64,000 nt of DNA from Bacteroidaceae bacterium (GTDB taxonomy: Bacteria; Bacteroidota; Bacteroidia; Bacteroidales; Bacteroidaceae): contig JAFUFK010000010.1 of the NCBI GenBank assembly GCA_017469925.1, positions 1 to 64,000 on the forward strand, in the 5' to 3' direction. Under the pieces are notes generated by a model. The model had not been told where the DNA came from. It did no database searches and saw only the letters and a list, made by a program, of their open reading frames with translations. The translations under genes were made by a program, and so were the position numbers. Shown here one piece after another: positions 33,007 to 39,739 of this stretch (the first letter of the stretch is position 1; each line of letters starts with the position of its first letter).

Positions 33007-33218
33007 GTTTTTTATTAGCAAAACCAAATATTATAATAGTAAAAATAACGTGAGACAATTCAAATCGCATATCGGCAATTTTTAAGATTACTATAGTTAC
33101 CCAGTTATCAAAACTCTAATAAAATGAATAGAGATTATTCATATGTCCTAACTCTATCGGACATCGGAATAAAATCGATAGTTCGACCTACCAAAATACA
33201 GAGAGAAAGTAATTGAGC

Positions 33219-34655
33219 ATGGAAAGAGGCAAAATCACCGTGGCGGGCATCGGGCCTGGCAGTAAGGAAGACATCACACCGGCGGTACTGGAGGCCGTGA
33301 GGGGTGCGGACGTTGTCGTCGGATACAAGTATTATTTCCAGTTCATCGAGCCGTACCTGAAGCCCGGGTGCCAGTGCATCGACACGGGCATGAAGCGGGA
33401 ACGCGAGCGTGCCGAGCAGGCCTTCGCCTTCGCTAAGCAGGGCAAGGACGTCGTGTTCATCTCCAGTGGCGACGCCGGCATCTATGGCATGACACCGCTT
33501 ATCTACGAGATGGCGAGAGACGAGGGAGCCTCTACATGTTCTGTGCTCGGCGACTCCGTCGTCGAGATAGTCTCCCTCCCTGGCATCAGCGCCTTCCAGA
33601 AGGCGGCGTCGCTGCTTGGCTGCCCTATGGGGCACGACTTTTGTGTCTTGTCCTTGAGCGACCTAATGACGCCGTGGGAAACCATCGAGCGTCGCATCCG
33701 AGCCGCCGCAGTGGGCGACTTCGTGACCGCGGTGTATAACCCGAAATCCCACGGACGTTACTGGCAACTGTACCGACTGGTAGAAATCTTCCTCCAGGAG
33801 GGACGCAGCGAAGATACGCCCGTCGGCTTCGTACGTCAGGCGGGACGCGAGGACGAGGCCGTAACCTTGACCACGCTCGGTCAGTTCGACCCCGAAGAGG
33901 TGGACATGTTCACGGTCGTCATCATCGGCAACTCGCAGTCGTATCGCTGGGGCGACAAGTTCATCACGCCCCGAGGATACTACCGTGAGGCTACGGACGA
34001 GGCCGCCAAGCCTGGGCAGCAAATCATGATGCAGTCCTTCCGTACCATCCTCAAGGAAATGAAGCAGCCGGACGTGCCGCGCTGGCGTCTGTGGCCCATG
34101 CTGCATGCCATACACACGACGGTGGACTTCGGCATGGAGGAATGCCTGTGGATGGACGACCGCGCCACCGAGACATTATATAACAAGGTAAAGGGCGGTA
34201 CGCTGCGACACATAGTGACTGACGTGACGATGGCCGCCAGTGGCATCCGCAAGGGAGCCTTGGACAGGCTGGGCATCGAGGTACATTGCTACATCAACGA
34301 CCCGCGCTCCAGGCAGATAGCCGCCGACCGTGGCATCACACGCAGCCAGGCCTGCATGCGTCTGGCCGCCGAGGAATATCCCGAAGCCCTCTATGTCGTG
34401 GGCAATGCCCCCACGGCGCTCTTCGAGATTTGCGACCTCGTTCGCTCGAGGAAGATACGTCCCGCCGGCCTCATCGCCGCGCCCGTTGGCTTCGTCCATG
34501 TGTGCGAAAGCAAGCACGCCGCCAAGACCCTGCGCCACATCCCCAAGATTATCGTCGAGGGTCGCAAGGGCGGCTCGAACCTGGCCGCCACGCTCTGCAA
34601 CGCCATCCTCACCTACGACGATGCCGAACAACTGCGGCCTGGCAGGGACTTGTAG
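33219..34655 (+). CDS. cobJ: precorrin-3B C17-methyltransferase / precorrin-8X methylmutase fusion (CobJ/CbiH-CbiC)
   Basis: A 478-residue fusion of two corrin-ring enzymes. Residues about 1-245 form a tetrapyrrole methylase (AGIGPGSKEDITPAVLEAV, FISSGDAGIYGM, AVYNPKSHGR, FTVVIIGNSQSY). Residues about 270-478 form a CbiC/CobH methylmutase with the catalytic His in HAIHTTVDFG and the late GFVHVCESK and IIVEGRKGGSNLAA motifs. The ATG at 33219 is preferred; a TTG two codons upstream is possible. It is the first GC-rich gene after the AT-rich island and shows no nearby TAnnTTTG promoter. The same fusion is known in Bacteroidetes. Confidence 0.92.
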   Translation: MERGKITVAGIGPGSKEDITPAVLEAVRGADVVVGYKYYFQFIEPYLKPGCQCIDTGMKRERERAEQAFAFAKQGKDVVFISSGDAGIYGMTPLIYEMARDEGASTCSVLGDSVVEIVSLPGISAFQKAASLLGCPMGHDFCVLSLSDLMTPWETIERRIRAAAVGDFVTAVYNPKSHGRYWQLYRLVEIFLQEGRSEDTPVGFVRQAGREDEAVTLTTLGQFDPEEVDMFTVVIIGNSQSYRWGDKFITPRGYYREATDEAAKPGQQIMMQSFRTILKEMKQPDVPRWRLWPMLHAIHTTVDFGMEECLWMDDRATETLYNKVKGGTLRHIVTDVTMAASGIRKGALDRLGIEVHCYINDPRSRQIAADRGITRSQACMRLAAEEYPEALYVVGNAPTALFEICDLVRSRKIRPAGLIAAPVGFVHVCESKHAAKTLRHIPKIIVEGRKGGSNLAATLCNAILTYDDAEQLRPGRDL

Positions 34656-34695
34656 GGGAGTTCAAAATGCATAGTTCATAGTTCAAAGTTGCATC
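34656..34695. repeat. TTCAAAG/TTCATAG junction microrepeat
   Basis: AGTTCAAAATGCATAGTTCA-type words fill the gap between the cobJ-cbiC fusion and cbiET. The same word family appears inside rnr (4075-4110). Confidence 0.5.
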
Positions 34696-36144
34696 ATGCG
34701 CTTCATCGTCATTGGAATAACCGACAATCCGCAGCCGTGGTTCCCGCCTGAGGTCATGGAGATTATCAGGCAGGGGCAGGTGTTCTCGGGCGGACGGCGG
34801 CATCACGAGATAGTGATGCCACTGCTACCTCCCGATGCCCGATGGATAGACATTACCGCGCCGCTGGACAAGGTGTTCGAGGAGTATAGAGAACTCCAGC
34901 CCCCCCCCCAGCCCCTCCCTTGTAGGGAGGGGAGTAGTAACATTATGCCCCTTATTAATAGAAGTGCTGGCTCCCCTCCCTATCAGGGAGGGGCTGGGGG
35001 TGGGTCTGCCATTATCGTCTTCGCCTCAGGCGACCCGCTTTTCTTCGGGTTTGCCACGACGATACAGCGGCGGATGCCCGAGGCTGAACTGGTGGTGTTC
35101 CCGACGCTGAACTCGCTGCAAATGCTGGCTCACAGGCTGACGATGCCTTACCACGACATGAGAATCGTGTCGCTGACGGGCCGCCCCTGGCCCGACTTCG
35201 ACCGAGCGCTGATAGAACGCACGCCGAAGATAGGCATCTTGACGGACAAGGAACATACGCCCTCGGCCATCGCCCAGCGGATGCTGGAGTACGGCTATCG
35301 GGACTACCGGATGCACGTCGGCGAGCACTTGGGGCACCCTGGTCTGGAGCGTGTCGTCTCGCTCTCATTAGAGGAGGCCGCCAAGGAAGCGTTCGCGATG
35401 CCGAATTGCATTATATTAGACCCTCCCCCCGCCCTCCCGTGTAGGGAGGGAGAAGTAACTTCCGTGGATAAAGAGCAGGGACCTTCAAGACTATCCTCTC
35501 CCTCCCTACAAGGGAGGGCGGGGGGAGGGTCTCCTTACGGCCTGCCCGATGCGTCGTTTGCCTTACTGGACGGGCGGGCGAAGATGATAACGAAGATGCC
35601 CATTCGTCTGCTGACCTTGCAGGCACTGGACCTGCCTCGGCGGCGCACGCTCTGGGACATCGGGGCATGCACGGGCAGCGTCTCGATTGAAGCGCGCCTG
35701 CTGTTCCCCCACCTGCGCATCGAGGCTTTCGAGGTAAGGCCCGAGTGCGAGGCCATCATCCACGAGAACATGCGGCGGCATGGTGCCCCGGGCATCGGGG
35801 TACACATCGGGGACTTCCGCTTGGTAAGTTGCGACTCAGTCGCAACAGACGCAACGGGGAAGCAGGCCGGGAGCCCCGACGAGGAGGGGCCATACGGGCG
35901 GCCTGACGCCGTCTTCATCGGGGGGCACGGGGGCCATCTGCGGGACATCATGGAGAAAGTCCTGCGATACCTGGCGCCCGACGGCGTAATCGTGATGAAC
36001 AGCGTCGCGGCCCCTCGGGTCAGCAGGGACAGCTTCCGGCTCTGGAACGAAGCGTGCGCCGAACTGCACCTGCGGCAGGACGAGCCCACAAGAATACAAC
36101 TCAATGACAACCATCCCATAACGATACTACGATGCAGAAGATAG
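34696..36144 (+). CDS. cbiET: precorrin-6Y methyltransferase/decarboxylase (CbiE-CbiT fusion) with two in-frame repeat elements
   Basis: A 482-residue CobL-type fusion; such fusions are usually nearer 400. CbiE (about 1-240) has IIRQGQVFSGGRRHHE, ASGDPLFFGFATT and the HVGEHLGHPGLERV region. CbiT (about 280-482) has the SAM-binding WDIGACTGSVSIEA and DAVFIGGHGG. Two inverted-repeat elements are inserted in frame: 34897-35007 (residues ~69-104) just before the GDP loop strand, and 35418-35532 (~241-279) in the CbiE-CbiT linker; a third loop (35828-35880) carries a 19-nt palindrome. The key motifs are intact, so activity is likely retained. It is 40 nt after cobJ and overlaps the next gene by 13 nt. 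Confidence 0.92.
   Translation: MRFIVIGITDNPQPWFPPEVMEIIRQGQVFSGGRRHHEIVMPLLPPDARWIDITAPLDKVFEEYRELQPPPQPLPCREGSSNIMPLINRSAGSPPYQGGAGGGSAIIVFASGDPLFFGFATTIQRRMPEAELVVFPTLNSLQMLAHRLTMPYHDMRIVSLTGRPWPDFDRALIERTPKIGILTDKEHTPSAIAQRMLEYGYRDYRMHVGEHLGHPGLERVVSLSLEEAAKEAFAMPNCIILDPPPALPCREGEVTSVDKEQGPSRLSSPSLQGRAGGGSPYGLPDASFALLDGRAKMITKMPIRLLTLQALDLPRRRTLWDIGACTGSVSIEARLLFPHLRIEAFEVRPECEAIIHENMRRHGAPGIGVHIGDFRLVSCDSVATDATGKQAGSPDEEGPYGRPDAVFIGGHGGHLRDIMEKVLRYLAPDGVIVMNSVAAPRVSRDSFRLWNEACAELHLRQDEPTRIQLNDNHPITILRCRR
34897..35007 (+). repeat. in-frame inverted-repeat element, copy 1
   Basis: Left arm (34897-34934) and right arm (34971-35007) are imperfect inverted copies; each arm itself has a CCCCTCCC...GGGAGGGG hairpin. 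It is translated as PPPQPLPCREGSSN... and ends AGGGS. The left arm includes a run of 10 C (34900-34909). Confidence 0.85.
35418..35532 (+). repeat. in-frame inverted-repeat element, copy 2
   Basis: Left arm 35418-35453 and right arm 35497-35532 are 36 bp each and match as inverted repeats at 35 of 36 positions. Outer ends are AGACCCTCCCCCC and GGGGGGAGGGTCT; inner halves form CCCTCCC/GGGAGGG hairpins. Translated as DPPPALPCREGEV... ending RAGGGS. Confidence 0.9.
35828..35846 (+). repeat. 19-nt palindrome in the cbiT loop
   Basis: GTTGCGACTCAGTCGCAAC is a palindrome apart from its central base, followed by a partial copy GACGCAAC. It encodes part of an extra loop (VSCDSVATDATGK) just before DAVFIGG. 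Confidence 0.6.
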
Positions 36145-38009
36145 CCTTGATACCCACAGGGCAGGCCGGAAGCGACGTGGCCGACCGCCTGTCGCAGGCC
36201 CTCATGCCCGACCTTGCGTGTACAACCCTCGCCCGACAGCAGGTCGCCGACCGCTGGAGGGAGTTCGATGCCCTGGTCTTCATCGGCGCCATGGGCATTT
36301 GTGTGCGCACCATCGCCCCGCTGATAGAGGACAAACACCGCGACCCTGCCGTGGTGTGCATTGACACTCAGTGTCAATACGCCATACCCGTGCTCTCCGG
36401 CCACATCGGCGGCGCCAACGAACTGGCCCGACGGCTGGCCGACATCCTCGGGGCCATGCCCGTCGTCACCACGCAGAGCGACGCGCGAGGGCTCTGGCCG
36501 CTGGACACCCTCGCCCAGCGCTTCGGCTGGACAATCGCCCGAGGCGAAGAGCAAATGAACCCGTGCATCTTCGCCTTTGTCAATGGCGAGCCCACCGCCT
36601 TGCTCATAGAGGCGCGGGACGAAGGCACCGACTACATGGAACGGACGCTCCCGCCACACGTCACCCCCATCCGCGACATCAGCGAGGCGACGACAGGGAA
36701 GTTCCGCCTCGTCATCGTGGTCTCGCCCTACCGTCGCCCCGTGCCCGAGGCGATGCTCATGCTACACTTCGTGCCCCGCGTGCTGACCGTGGGCCTCGGC
36801 CTTGCCCACCAAGCCGCGCCAGCCGACCGCATCCTGCGCGAAATCGGCGAGGCGATGGAGGCCCAGGGGCTCTATCCCTGCGCACGCCGCTACGCGACCA
36901 TCGACCTCAAGGCCGACGAGCCCGTCGTCCGACAGTTACAGGCCGAGGGCCACGAAGTCCAGTTCTTCCGGGCCGAAGAACTGGCCGCCGTCCACGTGCC
37001 CAACCCGAGCCCGACCGTCCAGCAGCACGTCGGCACCCCCAGCGTCGCCGAGGCATCGGCCATCCTGGCCTCGGGCGGTGGCACCCTCATCGTCCCGAAG
37101 ATGAAGGGGAAGGATTGGACGGTGGCGGTGGCAATCAGACCCACCCCCCAGCCCCTCCCTTGTAGGGAGGGGAGTGGTCACCTTATGGAGACGCAGGAGG
37201 AAGAACATTATACTCCCCTCTCTACAAGGGAGGGGTATGGGGGTGGGTCCCTGCCCCATGTGGAAATAGTCGGCGCAGGCCCGGGTGACCCCGACCTGAT
37301 ATCCGTGCGCGGACGGCGCTTCCTTGAACGGGCAGACCTCATACTCTACGCCGGCAGCCTCGTACCGAAGGCACTGACGACGTGCCACAAGCCGGGCGCC
37401 GTCGTCCGCTCGTCGGCAGACATGACACTGGAGGAACAGTGCGCACTGATGCACGAACACTACCGCAAGGGCCACCTCATCGTGCGCCTGCATACGGGCG
37501 ACCCCTGCATCTTCGGCGCGATACAGGAGCAGATGGCCTACTTCGACCGCGAGGGAATGTCGTATCACATCACCCCCGGCATCTCGTCGTTCCTGGCCGC
37601 AGCCGCCGAACTTCGCTCGCAGTTCACCATACCCGAGCGCACGCAGACCATCATCCTCACGCGCGGAGAGGGCCGAACGCCCATGCCCGAGGCCGAGCAG
37701 TTGCGCCACCTCGCCCGTAGCCGTTCCACCATGTGCATCTTCCTCTCCGCCTCCATCGTCGACGACGTCCAGACGCAACTCCTGGAGCATTACCCGCCGA
37801 CGACCCCCGTTGCCGCCTGCTACCACCTGACGTGGCCCGACCAGCGCATCTACCGTGGCCAGTTATCCCAGTTAGCCTCGCTCGTCAAGTCCCACGGCCT
37901 GACGCTCACCACCATGCTCGTCGTGGGCGACGCCATCGACAACCGAAAAGGTCTCTCAGAATTGTATAACAAAGCGTTCACCCACCTATTTCGGAAAGGT
38001 CAAGCATGA
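36132..38009 (+). CDS. cbiGF: cobalt-precorrin-5A hydrolase / precorrin-4 C11-methyltransferase fusion (CbiG-CbiF)
   Basis: A 625-residue fusion. The CbiG part (about 1-335) has IALIPTGQAGSDVAD, ALVFIGAMGICVRTIAPL, SGHIGGANELAR and TPSVAEASA. The CbiF/CobM methylase (about 372-620) has IVGAGPGDPDLISVRG, ADLILYAGSLV, HTGDPCIFGAI and ITPGISSFLAAAA. An inverted-repeat element (37137-37250) lies exactly at the joint and encodes RPTPQPLPCREG...GYGGGS as the linker. CbiG opens the delta-lactone of cobalt-precorrin-5A, releasing acetaldehyde; CbiF methylates C11 of cobalt-precorrin-4. It overlaps cbiET by 13 nt and cbiJD by 4 nt. Confidence 0.93.
   Translation: MQKIALIPTGQAGSDVADRLSQALMPDLACTTLARQQVADRWREFDALVFIGAMGICVRTIAPLIEDKHRDPAVVCIDTQCQYAIPVLSGHIGGANELARRLADILGAMPVVTTQSDARGLWPLDTLAQRFGWTIARGEEQMNPCIFAFVNGEPTALLIEARDEGTDYMERTLPPHVTPIRDISEATTGKFRLVIVVSPYRRPVPEAMLMLHFVPRVLTVGLGLAHQAAPADRILREIGEAMEAQGLYPCARRYATIDLKADEPVVRQLQAEGHEVQFFRAEELAAVHVPNPSPTVQQHVGTPSVAEASAILASGGGTLIVPKMKGKDWTVAVAIRPTPQPLPCREGSGHLMETQEEEHYTPLSTREGYGGGSLPHVEIVGAGPGDPDLISVRGRRFLERADLILYAGSLVPKALTTCHKPGAVVRSSADMTLEEQCALMHEHYRKGHLIVRLHTGDPCIFGAIQEQMAYFDREGMSYHITPGISSFLAAAAELRSQFTIPERTQTIILTRGEGRTPMPEAEQLRHLARSRSTMCIFLSASIVDDVQTQLLEHYPPTTPVAACYHLTWPDQRIYRGQLSQLASLVKSHGLTLTTMLVVGDAIDNRKGLSELYNKAFTHLFRKGQA
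37137..37250 (+). repeat. in-frame inverted-repeat element, copy 3, at the CbiG/CbiF joint
   Basis: Left arm 37137-37174 and right arm 37213-37249 are inverted repeats with about four mismatches; the AGACCCACCCCC end matches copy 1. It is translated in the same frame as copies 1 and 2 (PQPLPCREGS...GGGS). Confidence 0.87.
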
Positions 38010-39739
38010 TTTTGGTATTTGGAGGAACCACGGAGGGACGACAAGCCATCAAGGCCCTGGAGGCGGCGGGGCAGCCCTACTTCTATTCGACAAAAACGGG
38101 AGAGCAGGAGGTCGTGTTGCACCACGGCGTGCGCACCGACGGCGCTATGGATGCCGATGAAATGGCGCGTTTTTGCCGCAAGAACGACATTCGCCTCATC
38201 GTCGATGCCGCCCACCCCTTCGCCTCACGCCTGCACCAGACCATTGGCGACGTCGCCGCCTCGCTCCGCCTTCCCGTCGTCCGTTTCGAGCGCATCTATC
38301 CGCCACGCCAAACCGATATCACATGGATTGACGACTACCGGGAAGTGCCGACGGACGTATCAACCCTACTTGCCACCACGGGTGTGCAGAGCATCCGTCA
38401 ACTACAGTGGTTGGAGAAACGTGGCGTGAAAGTCGTCTATCGCATCCTGAACAGGGAGTCGTCTATCGCGTTGGCAAGAAATCAAGGAGCCCGGGACGAA
38501 CAACTTTGCTACTACGAAGAACCGGCCGACATGCCCTCAGGGGCCGATGCCCTACTGCTCAAAGAGTCCGGCCTCACGGGTGGTTTCGTGGAGAAGGTGG
38601 AGGAGGCACGCCGACGGGGGATGCGCATCATCGCCCTGCGGCGGCCACCCATGCCAGAATCGTTCGTCACCGTCGATGGCGAGCACGGACTGCGTCGCAT
38701 GGTGGAACGGCTATTGCCAGAGTTCTTCCCGTTGAAGAGCGGACTGACCACAGGCACCTGCGCTACGGCTGCTGCCGTAGCTGCAACGGTGAGACTGACG
38801 AAAGGCGAAACACCTGCCGAGGTTCCCATCCGATTGCCCAATGGCGAGACCATCAACGTGGCGGTTGGCTACGGCGAGGACTATGCCTACTGCATCAAAG
38901 AGAGCGGCGACGACCCCGATGTAACTAACGGCATCGAGATTCGCGCACAAGCCGAAAGGGCGAACAACTTTGAAATACGGAGCGGAAGTGGCATCGGTCG
39001 TTTCACACTACCTGGTTTCGACTTCCCACCAGGTGAGCCAGCCATCAATCGCATACCACGCGAGATGCTCCGAAACAATATCAGGGAAAGGGTTCGCATC
39101 ACCCTGTCCGTCCCCAACGGTGAGGAGATTGCCCACCGCACCTTCAACCCTCGGCTCGGCATCGAGGGAGGCATCAGTATCATCGGTGTCAGCGGCATTG
39201 TCATGCCCTACTCGGAGGAAGCCTTCATCCAGAGCATCCGTAAGTGCATGGAGGTGGCCCGTGCCAGCCAGTCGCCACGCATCGTCATCGGCAGTGGAAT
39301 GAAGAGCGAACAGCAGTTGCGCCACCTCTATCCTGACCTGCCCTCGCAGGCCTTCGTGGAGTATGGCAACTACATCGGCGAGACCTTGAAAATCGCCGAT
39401 GAAATGGGCATAAATCGCATGACCCTGGGTATTATGATAGGCAAGGCCGTGAAACTCGCCCAAGGGCATCTCGATACGCACAGCCGTCGCGTCACCATGG
39501 ACCGCACCTTCGTCGCCCAACTCCTGCGCGAAGCCGACTGCTCGACAGCGGCCATCGCCCACATCGATGGCATCACCATCGCCCGCGAACTCTGGGACAT
39601 TCTCTCACCCTCCGAGGCAGCTCGTTTTTCCGAGGTCGTCGTCCGCCATTGCTATCGGCATTGCAAGCCCCTGTTACCCAAAGGCGAACTCACCATCCTC
39701 CTCCTTGACGACAAGGGTGGAATCTATGGTAAAAAATAA
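38006..39739 (+). CDS. cbiJD: precorrin-6A reductase / cobalt-precorrin-5B C1-methyltransferase fusion (CbiJ-CbiD)
   Basis: A 577-residue fusion. CbiJ/CobK (about 1-245) starts MILVFGGTTEGRQAIKAL and has DAAHPFASRLHQ, YRILNRESS and LLKESGLTGG. CbiD (about 247-577) starts LKSGLTTGTCATAAAVAA and has NPRLGIEGGISIIGVSGIV, VEYGNYIGETL and the late HIDGITIARELWD. It completes the C1 methylation and C18-C19 reduction steps of the cobalt-early pathway. It overlaps cbiGF by 4 nt and is followed by a strong terminator. Confidence 0.95.
   Translation: MILVFGGTTEGRQAIKALEAAGQPYFYSTKTGEQEVVLHHGVRTDGAMDADEMARFCRKNDIRLIVDAAHPFASRLHQTIGDVAASLRLPVVRFERIYPPRQTDITWIDDYREVPTDVSTLLATTGVQSIRQLQWLEKRGVKVVYRILNRESSIALARNQGARDEQLCYYEEPADMPSGADALLLKESGLTGGFVEKVEEARRRGMRIIALRRPPMPESFVTVDGEHGLRRMVERLLPEFFPLKSGLTTGTCATAAAVAATVRLTKGETPAEVPIRLPNGETINVAVGYGEDYAYCIKESGDDPDVTNGIEIRAQAERANNFEIRSGSGIGRFTLPGFDFPPGEPAINRIPREMLRNNIRERVRITLSVPNGEEIAHRTFNPRLGIEGGISIIGVSGIVMPYSEEAFIQSIRKCMEVARASQSPRIVIGSGMKSEQQLRHLYPDLPSQAFVEYGNYIGETLKIADEMGINRMTLGIMIGKAVKLAQGHLDTHSRRVTMDRTFVAQLLREADCSTAAIAHIDGITIARELWDILSPSEAARFSEVVVRHCYRHCKPLLPKGELTILLLDDKGGIYGKK

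Follow-up and report, generated by a model that had tools for sequence, protein, structure and literature searches.

Two adjacent B12 genes carry three palindromic units inside their open reading frames, which raises the question of what kind of element these units are and how their host genes accommodate them. Comparison of the source genome with its relatives points to a non-autonomous, REPIN-like mobile element that is, unlike ordinary REPs, mostly coding; we consider this reading probable.

Three hairpin units in cbiET and cbiGF

Within the window (the whole 64,000-nt stretch of DNA that was analyzed), the units lie in cbiET (34696..36144, plus strand; 482 aa, with a TP_methylase match at residues 17-228) and cbiGF (36132..38009, plus strand; 625 aa, with CbiG_N/mid/C matches to residue 334 and a TP_methylase match at residues 379-582); the CbiT part of the cbiET product is named from its context. 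Unit 1 (34897..35008, plus strand; arms 34897-34934 and 34971-35008, 89% complementary) is located in the CbiE part of CbiET, where its peptide, QPPPQPLPCREGSSNIMPLINRSAGSPPYQGGAGGGS, stands directly ahead of the IIVFASGDP stretch. Unit 2 (35418..35532, plus strand; arms 35418-35453 and 35497-35532) occupies the CbiE-CbiT linker and reads DPPPALPCREGEVTSVDKEQGPSRLSSPSLQGRAGGGS; its arms are complementary at 35 of 36 positions (97%), as the initial annotation had stated. Unit 3 (37137..37250, plus strand; arms 37138-37175 and 37212-37249, 89% complementary) lies in the CbiG-CbiF linker and reads RPTPQPLPCREGSGHLMETQEEEHYTPLSTREGYGGGS. Re-measurement of the arm pairing confirmed all three inverted-repeat elements at these positions. 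In RNA folding, each formed one long stem-loop, with energies of -82.6, -87.4, and -86.0 kcal/mol and z-scores of -7.9, -9.4, and -10.8 for units 1, 2, and 3, respectively. The arm core CCCTCCCTTGTAGGGAGGG, searched on both strands with up to three mismatches, had 10 matches in the window against 0.03 expected from shuffles.

Several details of the initial annotation required revision. It had described AGACCC...GGGTCT ends for all copies; the left end of unit 1 is instead CAGCCCCCCCC, and the right end of unit 3 is GGGTCC. Its 36-bp arm was too short: the real arm is about 48 nt, with an inner stretch of ~14 nt (GAGTA.TTACTTTT) that is conserved too. The proposal that all copies share a frame holds for the left arms, all three of which give LPCREG, and for the right ends, which all give GGGS. 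It fails for the right-arm cores, where every copy uses a different frame (PPYQGG, PSLQGR, and PLSTREG). Nor is the biased frame much of a signal of selection, as most of it follows from a stop codon that blocks the third frame: the TAG of TTGTAG closes one left-arm frame, leaving two, so three of three copies in the same frame are expected one time in four. The inserts are apparently tolerated within these enzymes, and in this they behave like the palindromic elements of Rickettsia, as had been suggested.

A dispersed family in genes and at gene junctions

A genome-wide search with the arm core revealed further copies, as predicted: 108 matches were found in the source genome, which belongs to a relative of rumen Prevotella, against none in a backwards control, and 31 well-bounded pairs could be delimited. 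The core was present in 88 of 139 genomes of the same genus (0 in the control), and the named carriers were nearly all Prevotellaceae/Bacteroidaceae-type genomes, frequently of rumen origin. In viral contigs, we found no exact match to a 25-mer of the arm and no CbiET relatives. Among the papers listed by searches of an open-access library, none describes such a hairpin family in Prevotella or Bacteroidetes, or REP-made signal peptides. Each unit consists of two inverted ~48-nt arms, each a hairpin in its own right, flanking a non-conserved center. Neighboring arms occur almost always in one order (L..R, 108 pairs; R..L, 1; RR, 3; LL, 0; a further 30 pairs included an untyped arm); these 142 pairs were drawn from 428 cores, 152 of which had no detected partner inside 220 nt. 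Arms within one pair were more alike than arms across pairs (31 pairs; none of 10,000 permutations was as extreme).

Thirteen of the 31 source-genome pairs are open in frame within genes, although this set was picked by its open frame and out-of-frame interruptions may have escaped. The hosts include CbiET (both sites), the CbiG-CbiF linker, MnmG, QueA, RadA, and GH92, and 11 of the 13 pairs sit in proteins with a Pfam match above cut-off. Eight copies are read in the LPCREG-type frame, four in the PSLVGRG-type frame, and one in the third frame; in this sole third-frame copy, the TAG is mutated. In most relatives compared, the same loops lacked the insert or held other repeats, in line with the earlier view of these copies as members of a dispersed family.

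About half of the family, overlooked in the initial annotation, lies at gene junctions. These 17 source-genome pairs fill the junction, with one end mostly abutting the upstream stop codon. The stop of an ORF of at least 150 codons was located at -2 to +2 nt of the outer end for 13 of 62 ends (one of the 13 concerning an antisense ORF), compared with 46 of 11,200 random positions. An in-frame ATG is present within the center of 13 of the 17 junction pairs, and the right arm would then be the N-terminus of the next protein; starts were assigned by ATG, and GTG or TTG starts are possible. By ORF analysis, 26 of the 31 source-genome pairs count as translated, as do 48 of 68 units in named loci of a second sample from related genomes (28 with the start in the unit and 20 in genes). 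Translation of the units is thus predicted from their sequence.

The frame in which the right arm is read differs with the protein that follows. Phase 2 ('GVG') was used ahead of hydrophobic stretches in 11 of 12 cases and ahead of other N-termini in 3 of 24 (P value, 6.5e-6), while the 'GGGS' phase was used ahead of 20 of 24 non-hydrophobic N-termini. Genus-wide, 25 of the 32 AAVYATATACTCCCCTCC-form places examined (34 listed) combined an ATG a short way upstream with an extended open frame and, after the arm, a hydrophobic stretch. The hairpin arms appear to form parts of export signals, including the putative signal peptides of lipoproteins and a TonB-type receptor. We tentatively propose that the hairpin pair may act as a portable N-terminus: it would frame or supply the upstream stop, carry the start codon in its center, and offer a right arm read in the frame suiting the target (a KYILPSxxGRGxGVG signal-peptide n-region if exported, a flexible TPLPTREGQGGGS-type linker if cytosolic), with arms that, in QueA at least, may bracket native coding DNA via an undescribed insertion mode.

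Nature of the center and alternative readings

Among 123 units grouped by size, no class had a center in common, and a hidden conserved module, considered as a candidate, was not found in them. Centers inside genes (n = 13) had a median length of 32 nt and 57% AT, and those at junctions (n = 17) had a median of 69 nt and 72% AT. A non-conserved, location-dependent center counts against a unit copied whole. The lack of a common center and its variation in length and AT content with location favor a reading in which the two arms entered together on either side of native DNA: the center would be host sequence, the left hairpin would sit behind a stop codon or within one loop, and the right hairpin at the next permissive place. 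The QWxPY segment of QueA, a stretch of conserved native protein (30 of 30 loci), indeed stands between the arms in the source genome and in three relatives (L083, L085, and L086); among other relatives, L087 has the right arm only, L084 has the left arm of this type only, and L089 and L105 have neither. Several lipoproteins also keep ordinary signal peptides after mental removal of the right arm, as judged by eye. However, the flippase starts with MANLK/MASLK in five of seven unit-free relatives, while its start residues are unrelated in the source genome and three unit-bearing relatives; the RadA and MnmG centers resemble no native loop by eye; and the lgt center is an entire signal-peptide-like stretch missing from Lgt of unit-free relatives. 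Such bracketing would amount to a mode of insertion not yet known, such as strand transfer by an HUH enzyme on both strands or a template switch starting at a first hairpin. We consider it unlikely. By eye, the centers at cbiET site 2 (VDKEQGPS versus RGKEQEVRGRE), AraC, and DsbD are suggestive of native sequence; native centers are not claimed there, the similarity being partly arm-coded.

All four junction units that were folded paired their arms around the start codon in the minimum-energy structure (z-scores, -7.8, -2.1, -7.8, and -2.9), and REPs have been described close to the 3' ends of preceding ORFs (PMC3733652). The junction element could be chiefly an RNA device: a long stem whose loop holds the start codon would act on translation or on decay, and fusion to the N-terminus would be a by-product. 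We regard this as improbable, given that frame choice tracks protein chemistry and that several signal peptides would lose their n-region without the arm. An RNA-device role and translation are mutually compatible.

A classical DDE-type MITE would share the terminal inverted repeats, the AGACCC...GGGTCT ends, and the ~110-bp size. It is nevertheless very unlikely: no target-site duplication was detected in 101 units (exact junction 3-mers, 0 versus 0.8 expected), each arm is itself a hairpin, the center is non-conserved, and no DDE transposase gene bounded by the arms was seen. Even less probable is that the inserts are left untranslated, bypassed by the ribosome or removed from RNA in a byp-like or intron-like manner, for which the high stability of the long stem-loops might speak. 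The dependence of the gene-start frame on protein type, the absence of ATG from arm end to lipobox in five lipoprotein-like starts of the source genome (L006, L008, L048, L049, and L050; L006 has one ATG inside the arm), and the 13 in-gene copies open from end to end, though picked by that criterion, all count against skipping, because none of them would be needed if the element were skipped. Ancestral protein loops or low-complexity drift can practically be dismissed: loop length at the same sites does vary in relatives, but near-identical arms recur in dozens of unrelated genes and junctions and are missing from most relatives compared, and the dispersed copies already contradict this reading.

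Candidate mechanism and relation to known repeats

On the preferred reading of a REPIN-like, mostly coding element, the unit would most likely be mobile as folded single-stranded DNA, aided in trans by a Y1/HUH (RAYT-like) transposase. Each arm is stop-free in two or three frames, and a copy landing frame-neutrally within a loop or between domains of a protein would simply be translated, as in CbiET and CbiGF. In packed operons, surviving copies occupy junctions, where the left arm begins at, or provides, the upstream stop codon, and a start codon in the center would let the right arm be read as an N-terminus. Selection on the protein would retain the fitting frame: GGGS-ended peptides on soluble proteins, and LPSxxGRGxGVG where a signal peptide's hydrophobic core follows. 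The existence of the family, its pairing, arm order, locations, and frames, and its absence in relatives are read directly from sequence, whereas translation, the role of the transposase, and any fitness effect of the units are presumed here.

The source genome does contain a RAYT-like HUH gene (C5:91001-92020), whose product matches NF047646 (E value, 6e-13) and PF01797 and has DHIH and YIQDNP motifs by eye. Set beside RAYT/TnpA-REP HUH Y1 transposases (PMC6006769), it matches their family model below the NCBIfam cut-off (48.9 versus 80 bits) and is not flanked by the arms; its PF01797 (Y1_Tnp) score is just above cut-off for the whole protein (25.1 versus 23 bits) and 20.4 bits in the genome search. 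RAYT-like matches occurred in 94 of 139 genomes, in many relatives as open frames of ~340-550 aa extending past the match. Without correction for phylogeny, their number correlated with copy number across the 139 genomes (rho, 0.54), although 4 of 48 genomes with at least 10 cores have no match. Strong IS200-type Y1_Tnp genes, considered as a driver, had no clear relation to copy number (P value, 0.19). The initial annotation had advised looking for a nearby RAYT gene; the genome does hold a RAYT-like one, but its surroundings are free of arms out to 1.5 kb. A search for this arm type found none adjoining any of 30 RAYT-like genes, the source gene included, ruling out RAYT as a neighbor of the elements. 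Core-like matches were present in 6 of the 30 loci, two of them pair-like and 1.0-1.3 kb upstream (L467 and L473).

REPINs are REP doublets that form hairpins (PMC3116915), and the family resembles them in having two inverted REP-like arms with a spacer, a size of ~100 bp, tens of copies, one fixed doublet order, no target-site duplication found, and a RAYT-like gene in the genome. High copy number and over-represented doublets, by which REPINs are recognized, are both found in the present family (31 pairs). Unlike REPINs, the family is mostly translated rather than extragenic (the 26 of 31 and 48 of 68 units above), its spacer is wholly non-conserved, and RAYT-like genes are not flanked by the same arms (0 of 30 loci). 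GTAG/CGTC-tagged REPs (PMC3733652) include intragenic dimers encoding 20-30 aa, and they share with the family these coding dimers, closeness to upstream-ORF 3' ends, and a TAG usable as a stop. Their GTAG is an unpaired foot, whereas in the family GTAG spans loop and stem and other loops occur in other genomes; in addition, the family codes for protein in most copies, often for an N-terminus. Rickettsia palindromic elements (palindromic, ~100-150 bp, in frame in unrelated metabolic genes; PMC10969869) belong to another lineage, and a signal-peptide or gene-start role is not known for them from PMC10969869. Both lie in frame inside unrelated genes, a likeness of behavior.

REPs are commonly regarded as mainly extragenic. 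Here, as judged from its sequence, a REPIN-like family falls mostly within coding DNA and time and again makes up the start of a gene. It would give a repeat a route to remodel protein N-termini genus-wide, and its in-frame inserts in housekeeping enzymes amount to a natural insertion library. It also raises the question of how a hairpin pair fits the stop-to-start space so exactly, and gene starts assigned automatically in these genomes may be mistaken.

Inverted-arm pairs in the B12 genes and across the family

The three elements described in the initial annotation are present in the window, at 34897 to 35008 (unit 1), 35418 to 35532 (unit 2) and 37137 to 37250 (unit 3), far above chance expectation. 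Each is an inverted pair of ~48-nt arms around a centre, and the predicted RNA fold is a single long stem. Units 1 and 2 are hosted by cbiET (34696 to 36144) and unit 3 by cbiGF (36132 to 38009). In Pfam searches, unit 1 lies within the CbiE methylase match, unit 2 just past the end of that match (residue 228), in the CbiE-CbiT linker, and unit 3 between CbiG_C, whose match ends at residue 334, and CbiF, whose match starts at residue 379. Units 2 and 3 thus sit in linkers between fused domains. The stretch from 33213 to 39739 holds four consecutive B12 genes, each a pairwise fusion: TP_methylase(CbiH-like)-CbiC, CbiE-CbiT, CbiG-CbiF and CbiJ-CbiD, with the CbiH, CbiE and CbiT labels assigned from context.

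The elements had been regarded as a family, and further copies are indeed found genome-wide. The core CCCTCCCTTGTAGGGAGGG has 108 matches (both strands, up to 3 mismatches) in the genome of this contig, a 2.87-Mb draft of 28 contigs that is 85.8% complete, many places being counted twice because the core is nearly palindromic; the same genome read backwards as a control gave none. With any three-base loop and no mismatches, the core occurs in 88 of 139 same-genus genomes, at 1 to 166 places each. A 25-base arm sequence matched at least 117 stretches of named genomes; among the arm matches listed, 116 of 117 are in Prevotellaceae, Prevotella, Bacteroidaceae or Bacteroidales genomes, with rumen a frequent sample source; the remaining one is in Sphingomonas guangdongensis (locus L416), so the hairpin sequence is not strictly confined to Bacteroidales. 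The match in this alphaproteobacterium, at ~5230 on the + strand, is exact and unpaired, with another core ~420 nt away; in 8 kb of this locus, one arm of similar sequence was scored together with two more core matches outside any pair, and the arm may be one of those two. The match could reflect common ancestry or convergence among REP-type hairpins.

The arms follow a fixed order. Among 428 distinct cores from own, genus and named loci, neighbours within 220 nt were left-then-right in 108 cases, right-then-left in 1, right-right in 3 and left-left in none; 30 more neighbouring pairs had an untypable arm, and for 152 cores no partner was detected within 220 nt. The inner ~14 nt are conserved in both arms, the centre beyond them has no consensus in any size class (123 units), and no target-site duplication was found in 101 units. 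Across the 31 own pairs, an arm resembles its partner more than it does the arms of other pairs (0 of 10,000 permutations), but the true partner ranks best in only 5 of the 31.

Placement within genes and at gene junctions

We classed the 31 well-bounded pairs of the contig's own genome. Thirteen lie within genes, in frame and open from end to end, in hosts that include MnmG, QueA, DsbD, RadA, an EamA transporter, MatE, GH92, an AraC-type regulator, CbiET (twice) and CbiGF. The host protein has a Pfam match above cut-off in 11 of these; the exceptions are L010, with no match, and L015, a DUF3987 protein below cut-off. No out-of-frame interruption was noticed among the own pairs, a class that could be missed because in-gene pairs were chosen by their open frame. 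One pair (L041) was unclassified.

The other 17 pairs occupy junctions between co-directional genes. In 12 of them, a long upstream ORF stops within 2 bases of the arm, as does a 96-codon ORF in L033. The upstream ORF enters the arm and terminates at the TAG of TTGTAG in L043 and L050, and likewise terminates within the element in L038 and L036. Over both ends of the 31 pairs, a long-ORF stop within 2 bases of the end was found at 13 of 62 (one from an antisense ORF) versus 46 of 11,200 random positions. Downstream, 13 of the 17 junction pairs have an in-frame ATG in the centre and a right arm that reads into the next gene, and in the other four the ATG lies 2 to 8 nt past the arm; these calls considered ATG, and some starts may instead be GTG or TTG. 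In a second sample (107 of the 117 named loci listed, simple codon-score gene caller), 68 units were classified: 28 contained an ATG, 20 lay within genes, 8 were followed by a start, 2 were convergent, 1 was divergent and 9 stayed unclassified. Several of the loci derive from genomes that are related or genes that are near-duplicates, and some belong to genomes of the same-genus set.

The proposed insertion into CbiET agreed with the comparison of relatives: among the matches listed, most of 29 aligned relatives lack a window-type insert, and in others the site is taken up by a different pair, by one arm alone, by hairpins of another family or by tandem repeats. The CbiG-CbiF linker reads DYDHLRQR in L071, and is occupied by an arm pair of the window family in L055 and L079 and by another hairpin family in L075 and L077. 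At the 5' end of lgt (30 loci), L143, L144 and L157 carry window-family pairs and L161 has a right arm; L146, L148, L150 and L169 have another hairpin type, and L145, L147 and L149 have none. The RadA and MnmG units are common to the own genome and the same-genus genome G025 (L524, L504), so some units are inherited. The junctions and loops compared here are prone to repeats, and more than one family uses them.

Upstream of lgt (L142-L171), hairpin families differ by species and share the same architecture. In relatives, the permissive CbiET and MnmG loops (L053-L081, L480-L506) contain other repeat families: AT-rich sequence repeated in tandem, and peptides of the kind DSEYSEDSEKSD or VSSVSSVSSV. 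The own genome also has two-hairpin units of another type, with CCTCCCCTTGAAGGGGAGG adjoining CCCTCCCTTTAAGGGAGGG (L018, ~1819; L042, ~1630). In L238, a remnant, CAGACCCTCCCCCGCC, directly precedes the native ATG of a flippase gene, as if a unit had been mostly deleted.

The centre may be carried by the element or may be native host DNA. In QueA, all 30 loci compared share the QWxPY segment that lies between the arms, and it is flanked by both arms, one arm or none; the arms therefore bracket native sequence there. Furthermore, centres are longer at junctions than in genes (median, 69 nt versus 32 nt; P = 1.1e-4) and more AT-rich (72% versus 57%; P = 1.3e-5), and thus depend on place. Speaking against a native origin, five of seven unit-free relatives begin MANLK or MASLK in the flippase gene and the unit-bearing relatives do not; nor is a native counterpart evident for the RadA, MnmG or lgt centre.

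Gene starts, signal peptides and reading frame

Proteins with a unit at the gene start include Lgt, an Omp28-like protein, OadB, a TonB-dependent receptor, an outer-membrane efflux protein, SAICAR synthetase, an RNase H-like protein and several lipoproteins. The arm of L006, L049, L050 and similar lipoproteins encodes L(R)(K/N)(Y/H)ILPSIxGRGxG(V/A)G, which leads directly into a leucine-rich stretch and then SC or AC. Five own lipoprotein-like starts have no ATG from the arm end to the lipobox; L006 has one ATG inside the arm. The DNA form, AAVYATATACTCCCCTCC, occurs at 34 places in 18 of the 139 genus genomes. Of 32 examined, 25 combine an ATG no more than 22 codons upstream with an open frame of 70 codons or more and, behind the arm start, a stretch in which 7 or more of 9 residues are apolar (glycine included); the other 7 do not. 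The 25 are not independent events, since own copies are among them, as are orthologues of a single efflux-type gene.

The frame in which the right arm is read was compared with protein type in 36 start-in-unit proteins (13 own and 23 named, after removal of 5 near-duplicates). Where hydrophobic residues follow the arm, it is read in phase 2 (mostly ...GVG) in 11 of 12 and phase 1 in one; where they do not (n = 24), it is read in phase 0 (mostly ...GGGS) in 20, phase 2 in 3 and phase 1 in 1 (Fisher P = 6.5e-6). The three phase-2 exceptions (L003, L038 and one in L323) appear by eye to be membrane or exported proteins. Because frame follows protein type, this sequence-level match supports real translation and protein-level selection, short of proof of expression.

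A candidate enzyme and known systems

Of the nearby REP-associated tyrosine transposase (RAYT) envisaged initially, a RAYT-like gene was found in the own genome, but no arm adjoins any of 30 such genes, core-like matches lying elsewhere in 6 of these loci. The own 340-aa protein (L450, C5:91001-92020) scored 48.9 bits against the RAYT model (cut-off, 80) and 25.1 bits against Y1_Tnp, just above the Pfam cut-off of 23 (20.4 in the genome search). This RAYT-like HUH family (L450, L451-L479) has extra sequence beyond the RAYT match. Matches to the protein occur in 94 of 139 genus genomes, often several per genome, and their number correlates with element copy number (rho = 0.54, P = 8e-12; without correction for phylogeny and with fragments included as matches). 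Of 48 genomes that hold 10 or more cores, 4 have no match. Since no arms lie at the genes, that the protein acts in trans on the arms is a guess. Strong IS200-type Y1_Tnp proteins showed no clear relation to copy number and were rejected as the driver.

REPINs share the architecture (PMC3116915). REP dimers inside genes, REPs near upstream 3' ends and a TAG-supplied stop are known from other phyla (PMC3733652), and in-frame RPEs from Rickettsia (PMC10969869). Among the papers listed, our literature search found no such family described in Bacteroidales, no REP-like family with most copies coding, and no REP-like arms used as signal-peptide parts with the frame matched to destination.
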